Below, piece after piece: positions 23,007 through 30,627 of a stretch of DNA of 64,000 nucleotides. The DNA is from Flavihumibacter cheonanensis (lineage in GTDB: Bacteria; Bacteroidota; Bacteroidia; Chitinophagales; Chitinophagaceae). The stretch spans positions 434,001-498,000 of the forward strand of contig NZ_JAKRWF010000004.1 of NCBI RefSeq assembly GCF_022352215.1. The letters are read 5' to 3'. The notes beneath the pieces are model-generated. The model ran no database searches, was not told where the DNA came from, and worked only from the letters and a program-made list of their open reading frames with translations. Each line of letters begins with the position of its first letter. Position 1 is the first letter of the stretch. Position numbers and translations under genes: made by a program.

Positions 23007-24635
23007 ATGAAAAAACACATTTCCCGTTCAGGGGGAATGAAGGATCGTTTAACTGGATTGCTTCAATCCGTACGCCAATGGTGGAATTCCTTCTATAGTG
23101 ATGGTGTCAGAGAAAAAATCAACAATTCAAAATTAAGTTGGGAAGAGCGACTCCTGTTAATGGGGTTGGTAATCGTTGCCGGTATTTTATTGCTGGGCAT
23201 CAAGTTGTATGAAAACAACCGGTCTAACCAGCAAGCCTATACGCAATTGGATGAGTCAAGGGCTGTGCTGATGGAAACGATCCAGCTAAGAACAGAGATC
23301 AAAGAACAACTGGAGGGCAGCCAGGAAAGTCCCGGTTTATCCAGGCTGAATGCACAGATTGCTACCATCCGTGCTATAAAAAAACATTCTGCTGTTCAGG
23401 AAAACCGGCTCAGGTCATTGCAGGGCATGTTGCTGAGTTGGCAGGCTTCCGGAAATCAAACCCAAACAGATGAAAAAAAGCTGCAAAACCTGCTGGATGG
23501 AATCATGGCTGAAGAACAGCGAAATCTGGAGATCCGAAAAGCCGACGTAGAGTTAGGCAATTCCATTGATCAGCGATTGTATGTGCTGTTGCTGGTAACC
23601 CTGGTAATTCTTGTACTTTTTGCCGGGTATGTGTTATATAAAAACCAGTTGGCTACACTACAGGCCAAACAACAACTGGAAAACAACAAACAGATTTTAC
23701 AGTCGATCATTGATAACAGTTCCACCATGGTGTATGTAAAGGACATGCTGGGGCGCTTTATCTTCAAGAATAAAAACTTTGAAGAGGTTTTTGGCAAATC
23801 CGGAGAACACCTTAATGAAAGCCTGGATGAAACTGTTCTCGAAACGAGGACCACTACTGAGATCCAGGAAAATCTTCTTATCAATGGTGCTACCTGTCAT
23901 TTTTATTCCATTCGTTTTCCATTGCTTAATAAACACAACCAGGTATATGCTACCGCCGGAATTCTCACAGATATCACGGAAATGATCCAGAAACAGGAGG
24001 CCAGTAAGGAGAAGGAGATCCTTAAAAATACATTGGCTGTTCAGGAATCAGAACGTATGGAAATTGGCATGGAGCTGCATGATAATATTACACAGCTGCT
24101 TGCTTCCGCTAAACTGATGCTGGATACAGCGATCCGTCAAACCAAGAGAAAGGATGAACACCTGGAAAAAGCCCGGGACGATGTGTTTACCGCAATTCAT
24201 GAAGCAAGAAAATTATCGCATAGCCTGGTGGTACCCGGACTTGAAACCGAATCACTCACGGATGCGGTTATGCGCTTATTGGAAAGGCTCAAAACAGATA
24301 ACCGGTTGATGGTTCAATTAAAACTGGTTGCCAGGAAAAAAATCAATAGCATGGAACCGGGTGTACGATTGGCCTTGTATCGTATTCTCCAGGAGCAGGT
24401 GAACAATATCATCAAACATGCGGAAGCCAGTTCCGTGCTGGTGGAACTGAGGCATGTATCGGATTCCATCCAACTGATTGTTCAGGATGACGGTGTCGGA
24501 TTTGATCCAGATCAATATCAACCGGGCATTGGTTTATCCAATATCAATCGCAGGGTCAGGCACCTGGGAGGCGATTGCCGGGTACATAGCATGCCCGGAG
24601 AAGGATGCCAGCTAAAGATTCTCATTCCACTCTAG
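23007..24635 (+). CDS. Membrane sensor histidine kinase, PAS plus HisKA_3 (NarX/DegS type)
   Basis: 542 residues: two membrane helices (~45-66 and ~190-212) around a helical periplasmic segment, a PAS domain (~230-330, FIFKNKNFEEVFGKSGEHL), a HisKA_3 dimerisation helix with His358 in ERMEIGMELHDNITQLLA, and a HATPase (VNNIIKHAEASSVLVELRH; DDGVGFD; GIGLSNINRRV). This type pairs with LuxR-like response regulators, but none lies in this window. It ends 53 bases before the amino-alcohol permease on the same strand, so it may sense that substrate; this is a guess from position. Confidence 0.9.
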   Translation: MKKHISRSGGMKDRLTGLLQSVRQWWNSFYSDGVREKINNSKLSWEERLLLMGLVIVAGILLLGIKLYENNRSNQQAYTQLDESRAVLMETIQLRTEIKEQLEGSQESPGLSRLNAQIATIRAIKKHSAVQENRLRSLQGMLLSWQASGNQTQTDEKKLQNLLDGIMAEEQRNLEIRKADVELGNSIDQRLYVLLLVTLVILVLFAGYVLYKNQLATLQAKQQLENNKQILQSIIDNSSTMVYVKDMLGRFIFKNKNFEEVFGKSGEHLNESLDETVLETRTTTEIQENLLINGATCHFYSIRFPLLNKHNQVYATAGILTDITEMIQKQEASKEKEILKNTLAVQESERMEIGMELHDNITQLLASAKLMLDTAIRQTKRKDEHLEKARDDVFTAIHEARKLSHSLVVPGLETESLTDAVMRLLERLKTDNRLMVQLKLVARKKINSMEPGVRLALYRILQEQVNNIIKHAEASSVLVELRHVSDSIQLIVQDDGVGFDPDQYQPGIGLSNINRRVRHLGGDCRVHSMPGEGCQLKILIPL

Positions 24636-24688: not shown

Positions 24689-26089
24689 ATGGAGGCCCAA
24701 CACCCAACAACAGCCTCCGAGACTCATCTGGCAAGGTCACTCGGACCCTTGATGCTATGGGGTCTTGGAGTTGGATATGTTATTTCTGGAATGTACTTCG
24801 GTTGGAATCTTGGATTAGCGGAAGGCGGCACATTGGGAATGGCAATCGCAACCGGTCTGATTATTCTTCTTTACATCACCTTTACTTTTTCTTATACTGA
24901 ACTGGCTTGCTCCATCCCCAAAGCGGGTGGAGTTTTTGATTATGCACACCGGGCATTGGGAAAAAAATGGGGCTTTATTGCAGGCATGGCCCAGGTGATT
25001 GAATTTGTATTTGCGCCACCCGCCATTGCTGCTGCCATCGGGGCTTATTTTCATATTTTTTTGCCGGCTGTTCCGGTAGTAGTCATCGCTATCTTTGCCT
25101 ATTTTGTTTTCACTACCTTAAATATAGTAGGAGTAAAAGCAGCTGCCAGTTTTGAATTAATCATTACGGTGTTTGCGGTATTGGAACTCCTGATTTTTGC
25201 AGGCATCACATTGCCTCATTTTGAATGGACTAACCTGGAGCAAAATGCATTGCCCCATGGTATTACGGGTATCTGGGCTTCTATTCCTTTTGCCATCTGG
25301 TTTTTTCTGGGACTGGAGGGAATTGCGAATGTGGCAGAGGAAACCATCAATCCGCAGAAGACCATCCTGAAAGGATTTGGTTCAGCCTTGCTCACCCTTA
25401 TCATTCTTTGTGTATTAGTTTTTGTTTCAGGAATTGGAGTGGCAGGCTGGGAAGCCATCGTGTATGCATCACCGGGAGCGCCACCATCTGATTCACCCTT
25501 GCCACTGGCCATGGCAAAGGTAACCGGCAACAGTGGCTGGATTTATCATTTGCTGATCACTATAGGTTTGCTGGGACTCATTGCTTCCTTTCATGGTATC
25601 ATCCTCGCCGCGGGGAGAGCCAGTTTTGAATTCGGCCGGATGGGTTATTTTATAAAAGCCATGGGGCGCATTCATCCCAAATTCAAAACACCTGCAACCG
25701 CCTTGCTGGTGAATATGGGTATCGGGATTCTTGCCCTGCTTACCGGTGAAACCGGTTCTATTATTACCATTGCCTGTTTTGGTGCTGTAACACTTTATAT
25801 TCTTTCAATGATTACCTTGTTACGGTTACGTAAACAGGAGCCGAACCTGGAACGCCCTTTTAAAGTTCCGTTTTATCCTTATTTCCCTGTGATCGCTTTG
25901 ATCATTGGCATTGTTTGTATGATTGCCATGATTACGCTGTATCCATTGTTAAGCCTGTTCTATTTTGGAATTCTGGCAATAGCTTATGCCTGGTTTTATT
26001 TCTTCGTAAAAAATAATGCTGATGAGCAACACCCAATCGCTTCAGGACCTGTTAACCTACCTGGAGAGCCAATCGATCACCAAGGTTAA
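24689..26089 (+). CDS. APC-superfamily permease, ethanolamine-permease-like
   Basis: 466 residues and about twelve membrane helices. The opening stretch GPLMLWGLGVGYVISGMYFGWNLG and the later GMAQVIEFVFAPPAIAAAIGAYF are very close to the ethanolamine permease group as I recall it, closer than to other amino-acid permeases. The ATG at 24689 (MEAQHPTTASE) is preferred; an ATG at 24605 would overlap the kinase gene and add unlike residues. First gene of a five-gene operon; it overlaps the glutamine-synthetase-like gene by about 68 bases. Likely imports the amino-alcohol that the next enzyme glutamylates. Confidence 0.85.
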   Translation: MEAQHPTTASETHLARSLGPLMLWGLGVGYVISGMYFGWNLGLAEGGTLGMAIATGLIILLYITFTFSYTELACSIPKAGGVFDYAHRALGKKWGFIAGMAQVIEFVFAPPAIAAAIGAYFHIFLPAVPVVVIAIFAYFVFTTLNIVGVKAAASFELIITVFAVLELLIFAGITLPHFEWTNLEQNALPHGITGIWASIPFAIWFFLGLEGIANVAEETINPQKTILKGFGSALLTLIILCVLVFVSGIGVAGWEAIVYASPGAPPSDSPLPLAMAKVTGNSGWIYHLLITIGLLGLIASFHGIILAAGRASFEFGRMGYFIKAMGRIHPKFKTPATALLVNMGIGILALLTGETGSIITIACFGAVTLYILSMITLLRLRKQEPNLERPFKVPFYPYFPVIALIIGIVCMIAMITLYPLLSLFYFGILAIAYAWFYFFVKNNADEQHPIASGPVNLPGEPIDHQG

Positions 26090-27383
26090 GATCGCAGTTA
26101 CGGATATGGATGGTATCCTGCGCGGTAAACTGATTAGCTGGGATAAATTCAAGTCAGTTGTACAATCCGGTTTTGGATTTTGCAATGTGGTGTTTGGATG
26201 GGATTCCAGTGATGTTGCCTACGACAATGTGCAATACACAGGATGGCACAGTGGTTATCCGGATGCACAGGCCACTATTGATATTTCCACCTTTCGCCAG
26301 ATTCCCTGGGAAGAAAATGGTGCTTTCTTCCTGGCCGACTTTACCAACGAGCAGGGTTATAGCCTGGATATTTGTCCGCGTAGCCTGCTTAAGAAAATAG
26401 CAGCAGAAGCACAGGCTATGGGATTTTATCCTTCCTTCAGCCAGGAGTTTGAATGGTTTAACTACAAACGCCCATCCGAGATCCGGGATTTTCAATCCCT
26501 CGAACCGATTACCCAGGGCATGTTCGGTTATTCCATACTGAGAGCTTCCCAGCAATCCGCATTTTGCCAGGATCTTTTTGATCAGCTGACCAAATTTGGT
26601 GTACCCATTGAAGGTTTGCATACAGAAACGGGTCCGGGTGTATATGAAGCCGCCGTATTATATGGGCATATCCTGGAAGCTGCCGATCGGGCCGTATTAT
26701 TTAAATCAGGCGTGAAAGAAATCGCGCACCGGCATGGGTACCTGGCTACTTTTATGGCCAAAGTGAGTGAAACATTACCCGGTTGCAGCGGCCATGTGCA
26801 CCAAAGTTTATGGACACTGGATAAATCGGAGAACCTGTTTTATAGCAGCAGTTCGGCTAACCATATCAGTGGGTTAATGGAAAGTTATATGGCCGGACAA
26901 TTGTATTGTCTTCCTTATATACTCCCCATGTTAGCACCCACGATCAACAGTTATAAGCGATTGGTAGAAGGGGCCTGGGCACCAACTACCCTAACCTGGG
27001 CAGTCGATAACCGCACAACAGCATTGCGCGCATTGCCGGGTAGTCCCTATTCAACGCGACTCGAAACAAGAGTAGTAGGTTCTGACAGCAATCCCTACCT
27101 GGCGATGGCTGCCTGCCTGGCTGCCGGTTTGTATGGAATAAAACACAAATTGAAACTGGAGATTCCTGAGACTGTGGGTAACGGATATGCGAATAAAGTA
27201 CATGGTATATTGCCATCCAACCTGTATGAAGCTACCCAGGCTATGAAAAACTCACCGGTTGCCAGGGAATTATTCGGAGATGCCTTCACCGATCATTTCA
27301 CTGCATCGCGTGAGTGGGAGTGGAGAGCATTTGCCAAAGTAGTAACCAATTGGGAAACACAACGATATTTAGAAATCATATAA
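26022..27383 (+). CDS. Glutamine-synthetase-like gamma-glutamyl ligase (GlnA4/PuuA type)
   Basis: 453 residues of the class I GS-like fold: an N-terminal beta-grasp (VKIAVTDMDGILRGKLI), SFSQEFEWF with the conserved Glu metal ligands, GLHTETGPGVYEAAV, and the ATP-site block HGYLATFMAKVSETLPGCSGHVHQSLW. The canonical GS block NRxxxxRVP is replaced by VDNRTTALRALPGSPYSTRLETRVVGSDSNPYLAMAACLAAGL, as in PuuA, IpuC and GlnA4 enzymes that join glutamate to an amine other than ammonia. The neighbouring permease and alcohol dehydrogenase point to ethanolamine or another amino-alcohol. An ATG at 26016 is equally possible as start. Confidence 0.85.
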   Translation: MSNTQSLQDLLTYLESQSITKVKIAVTDMDGILRGKLISWDKFKSVVQSGFGFCNVVFGWDSSDVAYDNVQYTGWHSGYPDAQATIDISTFRQIPWEENGAFFLADFTNEQGYSLDICPRSLLKKIAAEAQAMGFYPSFSQEFEWFNYKRPSEIRDFQSLEPITQGMFGYSILRASQQSAFCQDLFDQLTKFGVPIEGLHTETGPGVYEAAVLYGHILEAADRAVLFKSGVKEIAHRHGYLATFMAKVSETLPGCSGHVHQSLWTLDKSENLFYSSSSANHISGLMESYMAGQLYCLPYILPMLAPTINSYKRLVEGAWAPTTLTWAVDNRTTALRALPGSPYSTRLETRVVGSDSNPYLAMAACLAAGLYGIKHKLKLEIPETVGNGYANKVHGILPSNLYEATQAMKNSPVARELFGDAFTDHFTASREWEWRAFAKVVTNWETQRYLEII

Positions 27384-27392
27384 TAGCAGTTT

Positions 27393-28544
27393 ATGACAAG
27401 TTTTGATGTAGTACGTCAGTATAATTTTCCAACTACCATTCGTTTCGGTGCAGGAGCCTCCGAAGAATTAGGACCTCATCTGAAAAGTGCTGGATTTAGT
27501 CGCCCTTTAGTAGTTACAGACCCTACCGTGCGGGATTTACCTTTCTTTAAAAAGATCCTTGCTGATCTGGAACGCCTGGGATTAAAGCCGGATGTTTTTT
27601 CCAACATTCATAAGAACCCGGTGAAGTCGGATGTACTGGCCGGCAAGCAGGCATTTCAGGATGCCGGTGCAGATTGTATTGTGGGTATTGGTGGCGGTGC
27701 AGGCATGGATGTAGCAAGAGCCATTACGTTAAGTATTCACCACCATCGGGATCTGTTTGATTATGATGATCTGATTGGTGGAGATAAATACGTTACAGAA
27801 GAAGTGCCCTATTTCGTGACATTGCCTACTACCAGTGGAACCGGAAGTGAGGTTGGTCGCAGTGCAATTATATCTGAAGATGAAACCCATCGCAAACGCA
27901 TTCTTTTTTCTCCCAAGTTGCTCGCGAAGATGGTATTTGCTGATCCCGTACTGACCATGGATTTGCCACCTTTTATAACAGCAGCAACAGGAATGGATGC
28001 ACTGACGCACAATATGGAAGCCTACATTGCAAAAGGATTTCATCCCATGTGTGAAGGCATCGCCTTGCAGGGGATGACCCTTATTAGTGAATCTATTGTG
28101 CAGGCAACCACTGCACCAGACCTGGCTTCCCGTTCCAAAATGATGATCGCTTCTTTGATGGGCGCCGTTGCCTTTCAGAAAGGATTGGGGGTTGTGCACT
28201 CCCTGGCGCATCCGCTTTCGTCGTTACTGGATACACACCACGGTTTGGCGAATGCAGTGAATCTTCCCTACGGAATGGATTTTAATGCACCCGGATTGGA
28301 GCCAGCGTTTCAGCGAATGGCACAGGCAATGAATGTAACAGGTGGTGATGCAGCTTCCCTGGTAGCTTATCTGTTTTATCTGAACGAACAGTTAGGCCTA
28401 CCCGAAAATTTAGGAGCCATCGGAGTAAAAGAAGAGCATCTTGAAACGCTTGCGACCCTGGCGGAGGCGGATTTCTGTCACCCAAATAATCCCAAACCGG
28501 TAAGCAGGGAAGATTTCCTGGCGATCTATAAAAAAGCATTGTAA
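27393..28544 (+). CDS. Iron-containing (group III) alcohol dehydrogenase
   Basis: 383 residues with the group III layout: TIRFGAGASEELG at the start, the NAD loop IVGIGGGAGMDVARAI (~residues 92-107), LPTTSGTGSEVGRSA, and the metal-binding histidines in ALTHNMEAYIAKG and VVHSLAHPLSSLLDTHHGLANAVNLP. It would oxidise the free hydroxyl of the gamma-glutamylated amino-alcohol to the aldehyde. A standard putrescine (Puu) pathway uses the flavoprotein PuuB here instead, so this gene is the main sign that the substrate has a hydroxyl. It lies 9 bases after the ligase gene. Confidence 0.9.
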   Translation: MTSFDVVRQYNFPTTIRFGAGASEELGPHLKSAGFSRPLVVTDPTVRDLPFFKKILADLERLGLKPDVFSNIHKNPVKSDVLAGKQAFQDAGADCIVGIGGGAGMDVARAITLSIHHHRDLFDYDDLIGGDKYVTEEVPYFVTLPTTSGTGSEVGRSAIISEDETHRKRILFSPKLLAKMVFADPVLTMDLPPFITAATGMDALTHNMEAYIAKGFHPMCEGIALQGMTLISESIVQATTAPDLASRSKMMIASLMGAVAFQKGLGVVHSLAHPLSSLLDTHHGLANAVNLPYGMDFNAPGLEPAFQRMAQAMNVTGGDAASLVAYLFYLNEQLGLPENLGAIGVKEEHLETLATLAEADFCHPNNPKPVSREDFLAIYKKAL

Positions 28545-28549
28545 GTGTC

Positions 28550-29257
28550 ATGAAGAAGAAAATCGGGATCAGTTTTTCTCGTACCAATTTCCAGCATTAC
28601 TGGGATTGGTTTACGGAAGCAGATCTTGGCAAAGACCTGGAGCTGGTATTGTTATCGTTTGAAACACCTGATCACGAGGCGATTAAGCAATGTGATGCCT
28701 ATGTATTAACAGGTGGTGTAGATATTGATCCTGTTTATTACCAGGGTGCCGCAGTATATCCAAATCAACCGGACGACTATCAACCTCATCGCGATGAGTT
28801 TGAAGCTACCATATATCGGCACGCCAAAGAAAAACAGGCACCGCTACTTGCGATTTGCAGGGGTATGCAACTGGTGCATACCCTGGAAGGAGGTAAACTG
28901 ATCCAGGACCTGGGTGAGCAGAATCGCCGGCATAAAAAAGATAGTGACGAGGATAAACAACACGCGGTACAACTGCAACCCGGAAGCCGGCTGGCAGCAT
29001 GGGCTGCGGATTCGGTTGGACAGGTGAATAGTGCACATCACCAGGCATTGGATAAAGAAACACTTTCAAATAATTGGCGAATCAGTGCGCTTGATGATAC
29101 AGGTCTGATTGAAGCAATTGAGTGGAAAGATGAAAAGGATCAGCCCTTTCTCATTGGTGTTCAATGGCACCCGGAAAGAATGCTGAATAAAGAAAAGAAT
29201 CCGCTATCACAAGCTATTAAAGAACATTTTATACAAACTATCCGAGAACAATCATGA
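28550..29257 (+). CDS. Class I glutamine amidotransferase-like gamma-glutamyl hydrolase (PuuD type)
   Basis: 235 residues: VLTGGVDIDPVYY, the nucleophile elbow LLAICRGMQLVHTLEGGKL with Cys103, NSAHHQALD, and GVQWHPERM with His207 and Glu209 completing the triad. This is the peptidase C26/PuuD family, which frees glutamate from gamma-glutamyl-amino acids. It starts five bases after the alcohol dehydrogenase and its stop overlaps the next start (ATGA). In the proposed pathway it would release glutamate and glycine from gamma-glutamylglycine. Confidence 0.88.
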   Translation: MKKKIGISFSRTNFQHYWDWFTEADLGKDLELVLLSFETPDHEAIKQCDAYVLTGGVDIDPVYYQGAAVYPNQPDDYQPHRDEFEATIYRHAKEKQAPLLAICRGMQLVHTLEGGKLIQDLGEQNRRHKKDSDEDKQHAVQLQPGSRLAAWAADSVGQVNSAHHQALDKETLSNNWRISALDDTGLIEAIEWKDEKDQPFLIGVQWHPERMLNKEKNPLSQAIKEHFIQTIREQS

Positions 29258-30627
29258 GCACATTTAACGTTATAAATCCGGCTACTGAAGAAGTACTGGC
29301 AACGCTGGATGAAGACAACCAGCAAACCATACAGGAAAAATATAACCTGGTAAAAAAGGAACAAGCAGCATGGGCGGAAGTTCCATTAACCGATCGGATT
29401 AATTGCATCCGGCGGTTTGACCAGGCTTTGGGAGAGCAAATCGAAAAGCTGGCTGGTATCCTGAGTGATGAAGTAGGTAAGCCCATCCAGCAGGCCAGAA
29501 ATGAAATTAATGGAGCAAGAGGACGCATTGCATTCTTCCTCAATAATTCAGAGAAATGGTTGCAGGATGAGTGGATGGTACTGGATGGTGCTACAAAAGA
29601 GAGAATCAGTTATGAACCGCTGGGTGTAATCGCCAATATTTCTGCATGGAATTATCCTTACCTGGTAGGTGTGAATGTGTTTATTCCTGCTTTGATTGGA
29701 GGAAACGCAGTACTATATAAACCATCGGAGTTTTCCAGTTTAACCGGACTCGCCATTCGTGACCTACTCTATCAGTCTGGCATACCCGAAAACGTATTCC
29801 AGGTAGTATTAGGCGGCGGACTGGTGGGAAGTTATCTGCTGGATCTTCCCCTGAATGGATATTATTTCACAGGAAGCAATCGCACCGGTAAAATCATTGC
29901 ATCCAAAGTAGCGGAGAAAATGGTTCCCTGTCAGTTGGAACTGGGTGGCAAGGATCCCCTGTATGTTACGGATGAAGTGGCTGATATCAACCAGGTGGCT
30001 GCCGCTGCATTGGAAGGAGTTGTATACAACAATGGCCAGAGCTGTTGTGCAGTGGAAAGAATCTATGTGCACGAAAAAGTGTATGATGATTTCCTGAAGT
30101 CATTTACAGAACAGGCAAGCGCATTGAAAATTGGAAACCCAAAGGAGGAAGGAATTGATATTGGTCCGCTTACCCGCAAAGAACAACTGGCATTTATTCT
30201 GAATCAGATCCAGGATGCGCAAAACAAAGGAGCGGAATTAATAGCAGGTGGTTATCGTCTTCAGCAACCGGGTTATTATATGGCGCCGGCGGTTCTTTCT
30301 AATGTGAATCACAGCATGAGTGTGATGAAGGAAGAAAGTTTCGGTCCGGTTATTGGCATCCAGAAAGTAAGCAGTGATGCGGAGGCCATTGATTTAATGA
30401 AAGATACCAGTTATGGATTAACAGCGGCTGTATATACTTCCAATGAAGAGAGAGCAGAAAAGATCCTGAAGCAAATGAATACCGGAACGGTATACTGGAA
30501 TTGCTGCGACCGGGTGAGTGCCAATCTTCCCTGGTCAGGAAGAAAGGACTCGGGTCTGGGTTCTACTTTATCTTACACTGGAATACGAGCTTTTGTTCAA
30601 CCCAAAGCCTGGCATCTCAGAAAATAA
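29254..30627 (+). CDS. Aldehyde dehydrogenase of the gamma-glutamyl pathway
   Basis: 457 residues with NAD-ALDH signatures: PLGVIANISAWNYPYLVGVNVFIPALI, catalytic Glu229 in QLELGGKDPLY, catalytic Cys264 in NGQSCCAVERIYV, and EESFGPVIGIQ. It resembles the aminobutyraldehyde/PuuC group, but SANLPWSGRKDSGLGSTLSYTG at the end is a less usual form. It would oxidise gamma-glutamyl-aminoaldehyde to the acid. Last gene of the operon, convergent with the RRM gene 12 bases away. Confidence 0.88.
   Translation: MSTFNVINPATEEVLATLDEDNQQTIQEKYNLVKKEQAAWAEVPLTDRINCIRRFDQALGEQIEKLAGILSDEVGKPIQQARNEINGARGRIAFFLNNSEKWLQDEWMVLDGATKERISYEPLGVIANISAWNYPYLVGVNVFIPALIGGNAVLYKPSEFSSLTGLAIRDLLYQSGIPENVFQVVLGGGLVGSYLLDLPLNGYYFTGSNRTGKIIASKVAEKMVPCQLELGGKDPLYVTDEVADINQVAAAALEGVVYNNGQSCCAVERIYVHEKVYDDFLKSFTEQASALKIGNPKEEGIDIGPLTRKEQLAFILNQIQDAQNKGAELIAGGYRLQQPGYYMAPAVLSNVNHSMSVMKEESFGPVIGIQKVSSDAEAIDLMKDTSYGLTAAVYTSNEERAEKILKQMNTGTVYWNCCDRVSANLPWSGRKDSGLGSTLSYTGIRAFVQPKAWHLRK

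Follow-up and report, generated by a model that had tools for sequence, protein, structure and literature searches.

A five-gene operon in Flavihumibacter cheonanensis with a probable role in B12-independent ethanolamine catabolism by gamma-glutamylation

The window, a stretch of 64,000 nucleotides from the Bacteroidota species Flavihumibacter cheonanensis (assembly GCF_022352215.1, contig NZ_JAKRWF010000004.1, positions 434,001 to 498,000), carries at positions 24689 to 30627 an operon of five genes that probably serves B12-independent catabolism of ethanolamine by gamma-glutamylation. That some primary amino alcohol is degraded by glutamylation is very likely. The strongest new argument for the glutamylation reading is the way in which the ethanolamine permease is partitioned between genomes with EutB and genomes with a glutamylating enzyme set, and this partition strengthens the proposed pathway.

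Gene content and proposed pathway

The five open reading frames (ORFs) are all intact, lie on the + strand and follow one another at spacings of -68, 9, 5 and -4 bp, the first being an overlap of the permease gene with the ligase gene; their coordinates and family matches agree with a preliminary description that had proposed five tightly packed genes of these families. They encode an EAT-type APC permease, probably for ethanolamine uptake (24689..26089), a glutamine synthetase (GS)-like gamma-glutamyl-amine ligase, the probable gamma-glutamylethanolamide synthetase (26022..27383; PF00120, 307.6 bits), an iron-containing alcohol dehydrogenase (ADH), the probable gamma-glutamylethanolamide dehydrogenase (27393..28544; PF00465/PF25137), a peptidase-C26/PuuD-like hydrolase, probably acting on gamma-glutamylglycine (28550..29257; PF07722, 150.9 bits), and an aldehyde dehydrogenase (ALDH), the probable gamma-glutamylacetaldehyde dehydrogenase (29254..30627; PF00171, 427.2 bits). 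For the first two genes the ORF-finding tool gave starts at 24605 and 26016, and the later starts were adopted, that of the permease as in the preliminary description. The permease scores 435.1 bits against TIGR00908, "ethanolamine permease", which is above the cut-off of 381.75.

From this gene content we infer the substrate, the order of the reactions and each of the activities. EAT would import ethanolamine, and the ligase, with ATP, would join the side-chain carboxyl of glutamate to the amine and thus form gamma-glutamylethanolamide. With the amine masked by the glutamyl group, the iron ADH would oxidise the terminal hydroxyl to an aldehyde, the ALDH would convert the aldehyde to gamma-glutamylglycine, and the C26 hydrolase would release glycine and regenerate glutamate. 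The pairing of ADH and ALDH implies that the glutamylated amine bears a primary alcohol group. The same series of reactions had been put forward in the preliminary description, and it is the best-supported reading of the operon, made stronger by the distribution of EAT and EutB; its choice of ethanolamine cannot be read from the ligase.

The active sites of all four enzymes are largely kept. In the ADH the iron ligands D202, H206, H269 and H283 are all present, assuming that these residues have their usual roles, and the ALDH retains E229 and C264. Hydrolase residues C103, H207 and E209 align with C114, H222 and E224 of PuuD, and the protein scores 71 against the PuuD equivalog model, below the cut-off of 266. 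The ligase keeps the metal and ATP residues and most of those of the glutamate site, with the exception of Asn264, which is replaced by Pro253. The ammonium-site residues Tyr179 and Glu327 (Salmonella numbering) are F168 and W319 in the window ligase, and the Asp50 column holds D68, although this stretch is poorly aligned; for most of these GS residues we presume the roles given here.

By its model scores the ligase is neither a PuuA nor an ammonia-using GS, either of which would have been at odds with the preliminary description. Its scores are far below the cut-offs for the ammonia-GS models TIGR00653 (204.9 bits, cut-off 429.15) and TIGR03105 (210.2 bits, cut-off 469.6) and for the PuuA model NF045547 (202.5 bits, cut-off 650). 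Elsewhere in the genome PF00120 has one match, in an open frame of 733 aa that could cover glutamine synthesis. A search for EutB gave no match in the window's genome, with a positive E. coli control and with EutC not searched.

Distribution of the permease, EutB and the operon

In a sample of 395 Bacteroidota genomes, EAT was found at E <= 1e-90 in 19. Eight of these 19 carry a window-type ligase with its ADH, and three carry a ligase of a clade linked to a short-chain dehydrogenase (SDR), two of them with SDR, ALDH and EAT in one locus and the third with the ligase elsewhere in the genome. EutB is present in eight; its gene lies beside that of EAT in seven of them and on a separate contig in the eighth. 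None of the 19 combines EutB with either of these glutamylating sets (Fisher p 1.3e-5, a value that ignores kinship). In a permease tree, which like the ADH and ALDH trees and the wider ligase tree of 97 rows came from a quick search, the glutamylation-linked and EutB-linked EATs form two groups (support 84 and 86 in the Shimodaira-Hasegawa-like approximate likelihood ratio test, SH-aLRT), with the window EAT in the former. Among plasmids, 17 records contain EAT, and of three examined, two have EutBC adjoining and one has a primary-amine oxidase.

Two of the compared Bacteroidota loci, numbered L171 and L172, combine an SDR-linked ligase, an SDR and an ALDH with an EAT that is 66-68% identical to the window's. 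By their gene content, they appear to hold a second glutamylating enzyme set with the same kind of permease.

The arrangement of the operon was compared across 77 loci from the ligase clade that had 1.5 kb or more of sequence upstream and 5 kb or more downstream; the window is one of them, and most were chosen because their GS resembles the window's. The order EAT-GS-ADH-GAT-ALDH is kept in 36 of the 77, which argues that the five-gene arrangement is not due to chance, and 42 have the GS with both ADH and ALDH. The remaining loci comprise three with EAT-GS-ADH and no ALDH, five with EAT-GS only, 19 with a different module and eight unassigned. The closest named locus is that of Flavihumibacter fluminis, with a ligase 98% identical. 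More broadly, the ligase was matched at E <= 1e-40 in 48 of 195 genomes of a family sample and at E <= 1e-60 in 52 of the 395 genomes of the phylum sample, the latter falling into a discrete group of 41 (at least 516 bits) and 11 distant matches (at most 272 bits).

The ADH and ALDH also have relatives linked to GS-like genes on plasmids. Thirty ADH relatives were tabulated from the best 60 of 446 plasmid matches, the other 30 being Pseudosulfitobacter rows at 217-218 bits; each of the 18 that score at least 251 bits has a listed GS-like gene within 6 kb, and none of the 12 that score 244 bits or less does, linkage being judged against the 60 GS records listed. The same proximity holds for 33 of 38 plasmid relatives of the ALDH (E <= 1e-70). 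In the quick trees the window-type ADHs and ALDHs form clades of their own, and these trees do not prove orthology with the enzymes of other phyla.

The ligase clade and alternative readings

The more careful ligase tree had 59 rows; six plasmid ligases were added to it, and the Shinella, Ensifer, Streptomyces and E. coli GlnA sequences, which have long branches, were dropped together with most window-type rows. SDR-linked ligases served as stand-ins for GlnA4 in the trees. In this careful tree, the window ligase belongs to a Bacteroidota clade of 32 rows (support 97/89), the sister of which is a set of eight ligases from proteobacterial plasmids, and both groups together are supported at 100/100. 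The IpuC branch joins this wider clade weakly (87/46), and the window ligase does not group within it. The ligases of Paracoccus, Ruegeria and PDB entry 5dm3, which we take to be the C. salexigens enzyme, form with the SDR-linked ligases another group of 15 rows (100/99), and the window ligase lies outside it. The 97-row tree gives the same picture, although the branches of PuuA, GlnA, Shinella, Ensifer and Streptomyces in it are long and uncertain; in both trees the window ligase groups with neither PuuA nor GlnA, both of which sit on very long branches. Two further Bacteroidota loci (L167 and L169) carry other GS-ALDH-ADH sets, their ligases being placed among or close to those of the Paracoccus/Ruegeria type, and L167, like Ruegeria, also has an inositol-monophosphatase-like gene.

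Members of the window's own clade occur in a second gene context, in which the GS is followed by a protein of about 347 aa (here KIN) and then by a HAD-IIA hydrolase/phosphatase. Examples are L154 (4090-7365), L159, L160, L148, L152, L096 and L100, among others, and some of these loci have beside the module another glutamine synthetase gene and a divergent gene of the GGACT type. This GS-KIN-HAD context is basal and paraphyletic in the ligase trees, with the window type nested inside it; in the careful tree the window type comprises 11 rows (100/99), a few of which are EAT-GS only or unassigned. No EAT was seen in the fetched flanks of GS-KIN-HAD ligases; EAT is encoded elsewhere in five of the 26 GS-KIN-HAD genomes of the phylum sample, and all five have EutB. 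The KIN protein had no Pfam match and no PDB match of note, a single weak NCBIfam match to TIGR03034 (E 4e-4, 19.9 bits against a cut-off of 156), no significant profile similarity to two proteins annotated as APH/choline kinases, and an AlphaFold model built from two sequences with a mean predicted local distance difference test (pLDDT) of 45. The motif VDWNIGNF...WDYDW, read by eye, gave the idea that KIN may be kinase-like. We regard it as an even call whether one ligase clade serves two pathways, namely the ethanolamine operon and a second, undescribed gamma-glutamyl-amine pathway (GS-KIN-HAD, sometimes with a GGACT-type gamma-glutamyl cyclotransferase), the window operon being a derived, ethanolamine-directed offshoot of the older module.

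Several observations weigh against ethanolamine as the substrate or against the generality of the pattern. Of the 41 clade genomes in the phylum sample, 34 could be classified by context and seven could not, some short loci showing only part of the set; only eight of the 34 are window-type and 26 are GS-KIN-HAD. Since the clade is found more often in this other module, the substrate is not readable from the ligase itself. An attempt to derive the substrate from the GS active-site columns failed, as window-type and GS-KIN-HAD ligases agree in almost every column compared; the pocket thus does not single out ethanolamine, because ligases beside other genes share its letters. The searches made found no characterised member of the clade. 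The partition of EAT also runs one way: four of 12 EutB genomes lack EAT at E <= 1e-90, as do eight of the 11 genomes whose ligase match is distant. In six of the 42 loci that combine GS, ADH and ALDH, the flank contains no EAT, and on a Paraburkholderia caffeinilytica plasmid (L195) EAT is followed by the primary-amine oxidase, with no Eut or glutamylation genes. Among the eight proteobacterial-plasmid relatives of the ligase, ALDH adjoins in seven and iron ADH in only three (Legionella and two Photobacterium), and an aminotransferase with a polyamine-type ABC transporter is found in two loci and a GMC oxidoreductase in one. Finally, the ADH tree leaves a three-way split between the window-type ADHs, the GS-linked ADHs of other organisms and a Cupriavidus ADH without a GS.

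The two rhizobial/rhodobacterial plasmid loci with aminotransferase and polyamine-type ABC genes (L177 and L179) have ligases 41-44% identical to the window's and no iron ADH, a gene content that suggests a diamine version.

A first alternative reading is the same chemistry acting on another primary amino alcohol (e.g., L-alaninol, 3-aminopropanol or serinol) and ending in a different amino acid. The Ipu route passes through gamma-glutamyl-L-alaninol, and IpuC of Paenarthrobacter, 39.3% identical, stands nearest among those of the listed plasmid ligases (best 60 of 205 records) that carry a specific function name; its group also joins the window's wider clade, if weakly, and the compared active-site residues do not separate substrates. 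We nevertheless consider another amino alcohol unlikely, though worth keeping in mind, given that the operon has no P450/ferredoxin set as found in Ipu clusters, that its permease is of the ethanolamine family, common to Eut and glutamylating genomes, and that ethanolamine is the commonest natural amino alcohol. A looser version, in which the operon carries out broad amine detoxification or nitrogen salvage with no single physiological substrate, would fit the several gene contexts of related ligases, but the 68-bp overlap between permease and ligase genes and the constancy of the enzyme set across the 36 same-order loci make it highly improbable.

The oxidising enzymes could also be imagined to act on free 4-hydroxybutyrate and succinic semialdehyde, with the GS-like gene having a separate function. 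The best NCBIfam models are indeed those of 4-hydroxybutyrate dehydrogenase for the ADH (NF058672, 328.7 bits) and of succinic semialdehyde dehydrogenase for the ALDH (PRK09407, 369.3 bits), but both scores are under the cut-offs (500 and 521), the same best models are found for the ADHs encoded in the GS loci of Paracoccus, Ruegeria and Legionella (352-358 bits) and for the Paracoccus and Legionella ALDHs (312-315 bits), and the gene order is kept with GS, EAT and hydrolase, all of which renders this reading very doubtful. A Puu-type polyamine pathway shares with the operon the GS-like ligase, the PuuD-like hydrolase and the ALDH, and related ligases adjoin polyamine-type transporters in the two plasmid loci mentioned; against it stand the lack of a PuuB-like oxidase or aminotransferase in the operon, the PuuA equivalog score and a permease that is an EAT, 21% identical to PuuP, and we hold it to be extremely unlikely. 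The Puu, ammonia-GS, IpuC-P450 and 4-hydroxybutyrate readings were accordingly rejected on scores under cut-offs, the absence of P450 and PuuB, and the EAT permease.

Known systems, neighbouring genes and significance

Ethanolamine glutamylation is itself an established route, and a full B12-free operon of the kind proposed in the preliminary description is not new. Such a pathway has been described by proteomics in Phaeobacter sp. MED193, where the genes for the ligase, a gamma-glutamylethanolamide dehydrogenase, an aldehyde dehydrogenase and a gamma-glutamylglycine amidohydrolase lie together in an operon and are, in the authors' own account, closely related to C. salexigens and A. tumefaciens genes demonstrated in ethanolamine use (PMC10132767). 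The window's operon would carry out the same four reactions (ligase, alcohol-oxidising dehydrogenase, ALDH, hydrolase) and, as in the Phaeobacter/Paracoccus type, has GS-like ligase, ALDH and alcohol-oxidising dehydrogenase in one operon. An iron-containing ADH is annotated in the Paracoccus and Ruegeria operons that share the Phaeobacter make-up, whereas the Phaeobacter dehydrogenase is not named an iron ADH in the paper's description of the operon (PMC10132767). As these systems are described, Phaeobacter and Paracoccus have a TRAP transporter where the window has EAT. The hydrolase annotated in Paracoccus and Ruegeria is of the N-formylglutamate-amidohydrolase type, in contrast to the C26 type of the window, and their ligases, at about 34-35% identity to that of the window, belong to the separate clade with 5dm3.

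In Streptomyces coelicolor growth on ethanolamine depends on the enzyme GlnA4, which forms gamma-glutamylethanolamide in vitro, and the GlnA4 pathway as outlined there resembles the proposed one in this first product, in an ALDH, in a glutamine amidotransferase in the cluster and, in some species, in a permease gene, the product of which is described as unlike Eat (PMC6529630). The cluster has a short-chain dehydrogenase according to the same outline (PMC6529630), and the window has an iron ADH and no SDR in the operon. As to the GlnA4 and IpuC routes named in the preliminary description, IpuC stands on a separate branch and the window ligase lies outside the SDR-linked stand-ins, in a tree that held no GlnA4 sequence itself.

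The isopropylamine-type Ipu clusters of Paenarthrobacter aurescens TC1 (pTC1) and Arthrobacter D5-1 likewise have a GS-like ligase, an ALDH and an amidotransferase-type hydrolase, and the best plasmid matches to the window's hydrolase include theirs. They differ in having a cytochrome P450 with ferredoxin and reductase, absent from the window's operon, and an SDR, and their ligases are 38-39% identical. The plasmid loci of Legionella lytica and Photobacterium combine a GS-like ligase with ALDH and iron ADH, with an amidotransferase-type gene annotated in L. lytica; their ligases, 43-45% identical, are among the nearest outside the Bacteroidota, and equally near ligases occur without an iron ADH. 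Gene order differs in these loci, and an EAT-like gene (35%) was seen only in Photobacterium GJ3. The Puu pathway of E. coli, the substrate of which is a diamine, shares glutamylation, ALDH and PuuD-type hydrolysis, and uses the flavoprotein PuuB where the window has an ADH. The open-licence literature searched yielded no paper on such an operon in Bacteroidota. What is new here is the ligase lineage and the combination of EAT with a C26 hydrolase; the B12-free glutamylation route is already known.

Upstream of the operon, a histidine kinase gene with PAS, HisKA_3 and HATPase domains (23007..24635, + strand; Pfam PAS_4, HisKA_3, HATPase_c) ends 53 bp before the permease gene, and its position makes it a possible sensor of the operon. 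It occupies the same position in three loci titled Flavihumibacter (L022, L024, L025) and one titled Flavipsychrobacter (L023); L028 has a 40% identical kinase at the same position, and L026 has one, 41% identical, about 3 kb away. Apart from fragments of the window's own genus, it was not detected in the remaining compared loci, and no response regulator gene was seen beside it. No tandem repeats were found. Promoter-like sites were fewer than the shuffle mean and terminator-like sites numbered 12 against 7.8 (sd 2.8), and neither was used as evidence.

The operon offers a plausible ethanolamine route for Bacteroidota without ethanolamine ammonia-lyase, ethanolamine being a common breakdown product of membrane lipids. 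The ethanolamine permease has EutBC as its partner in some genomes and one or the other of two glutamylating enzyme sets in others. With such pairings, substrate prediction becomes testable for many genes annotated as "glutamine synthetase family", an annotation that hides several pathways.

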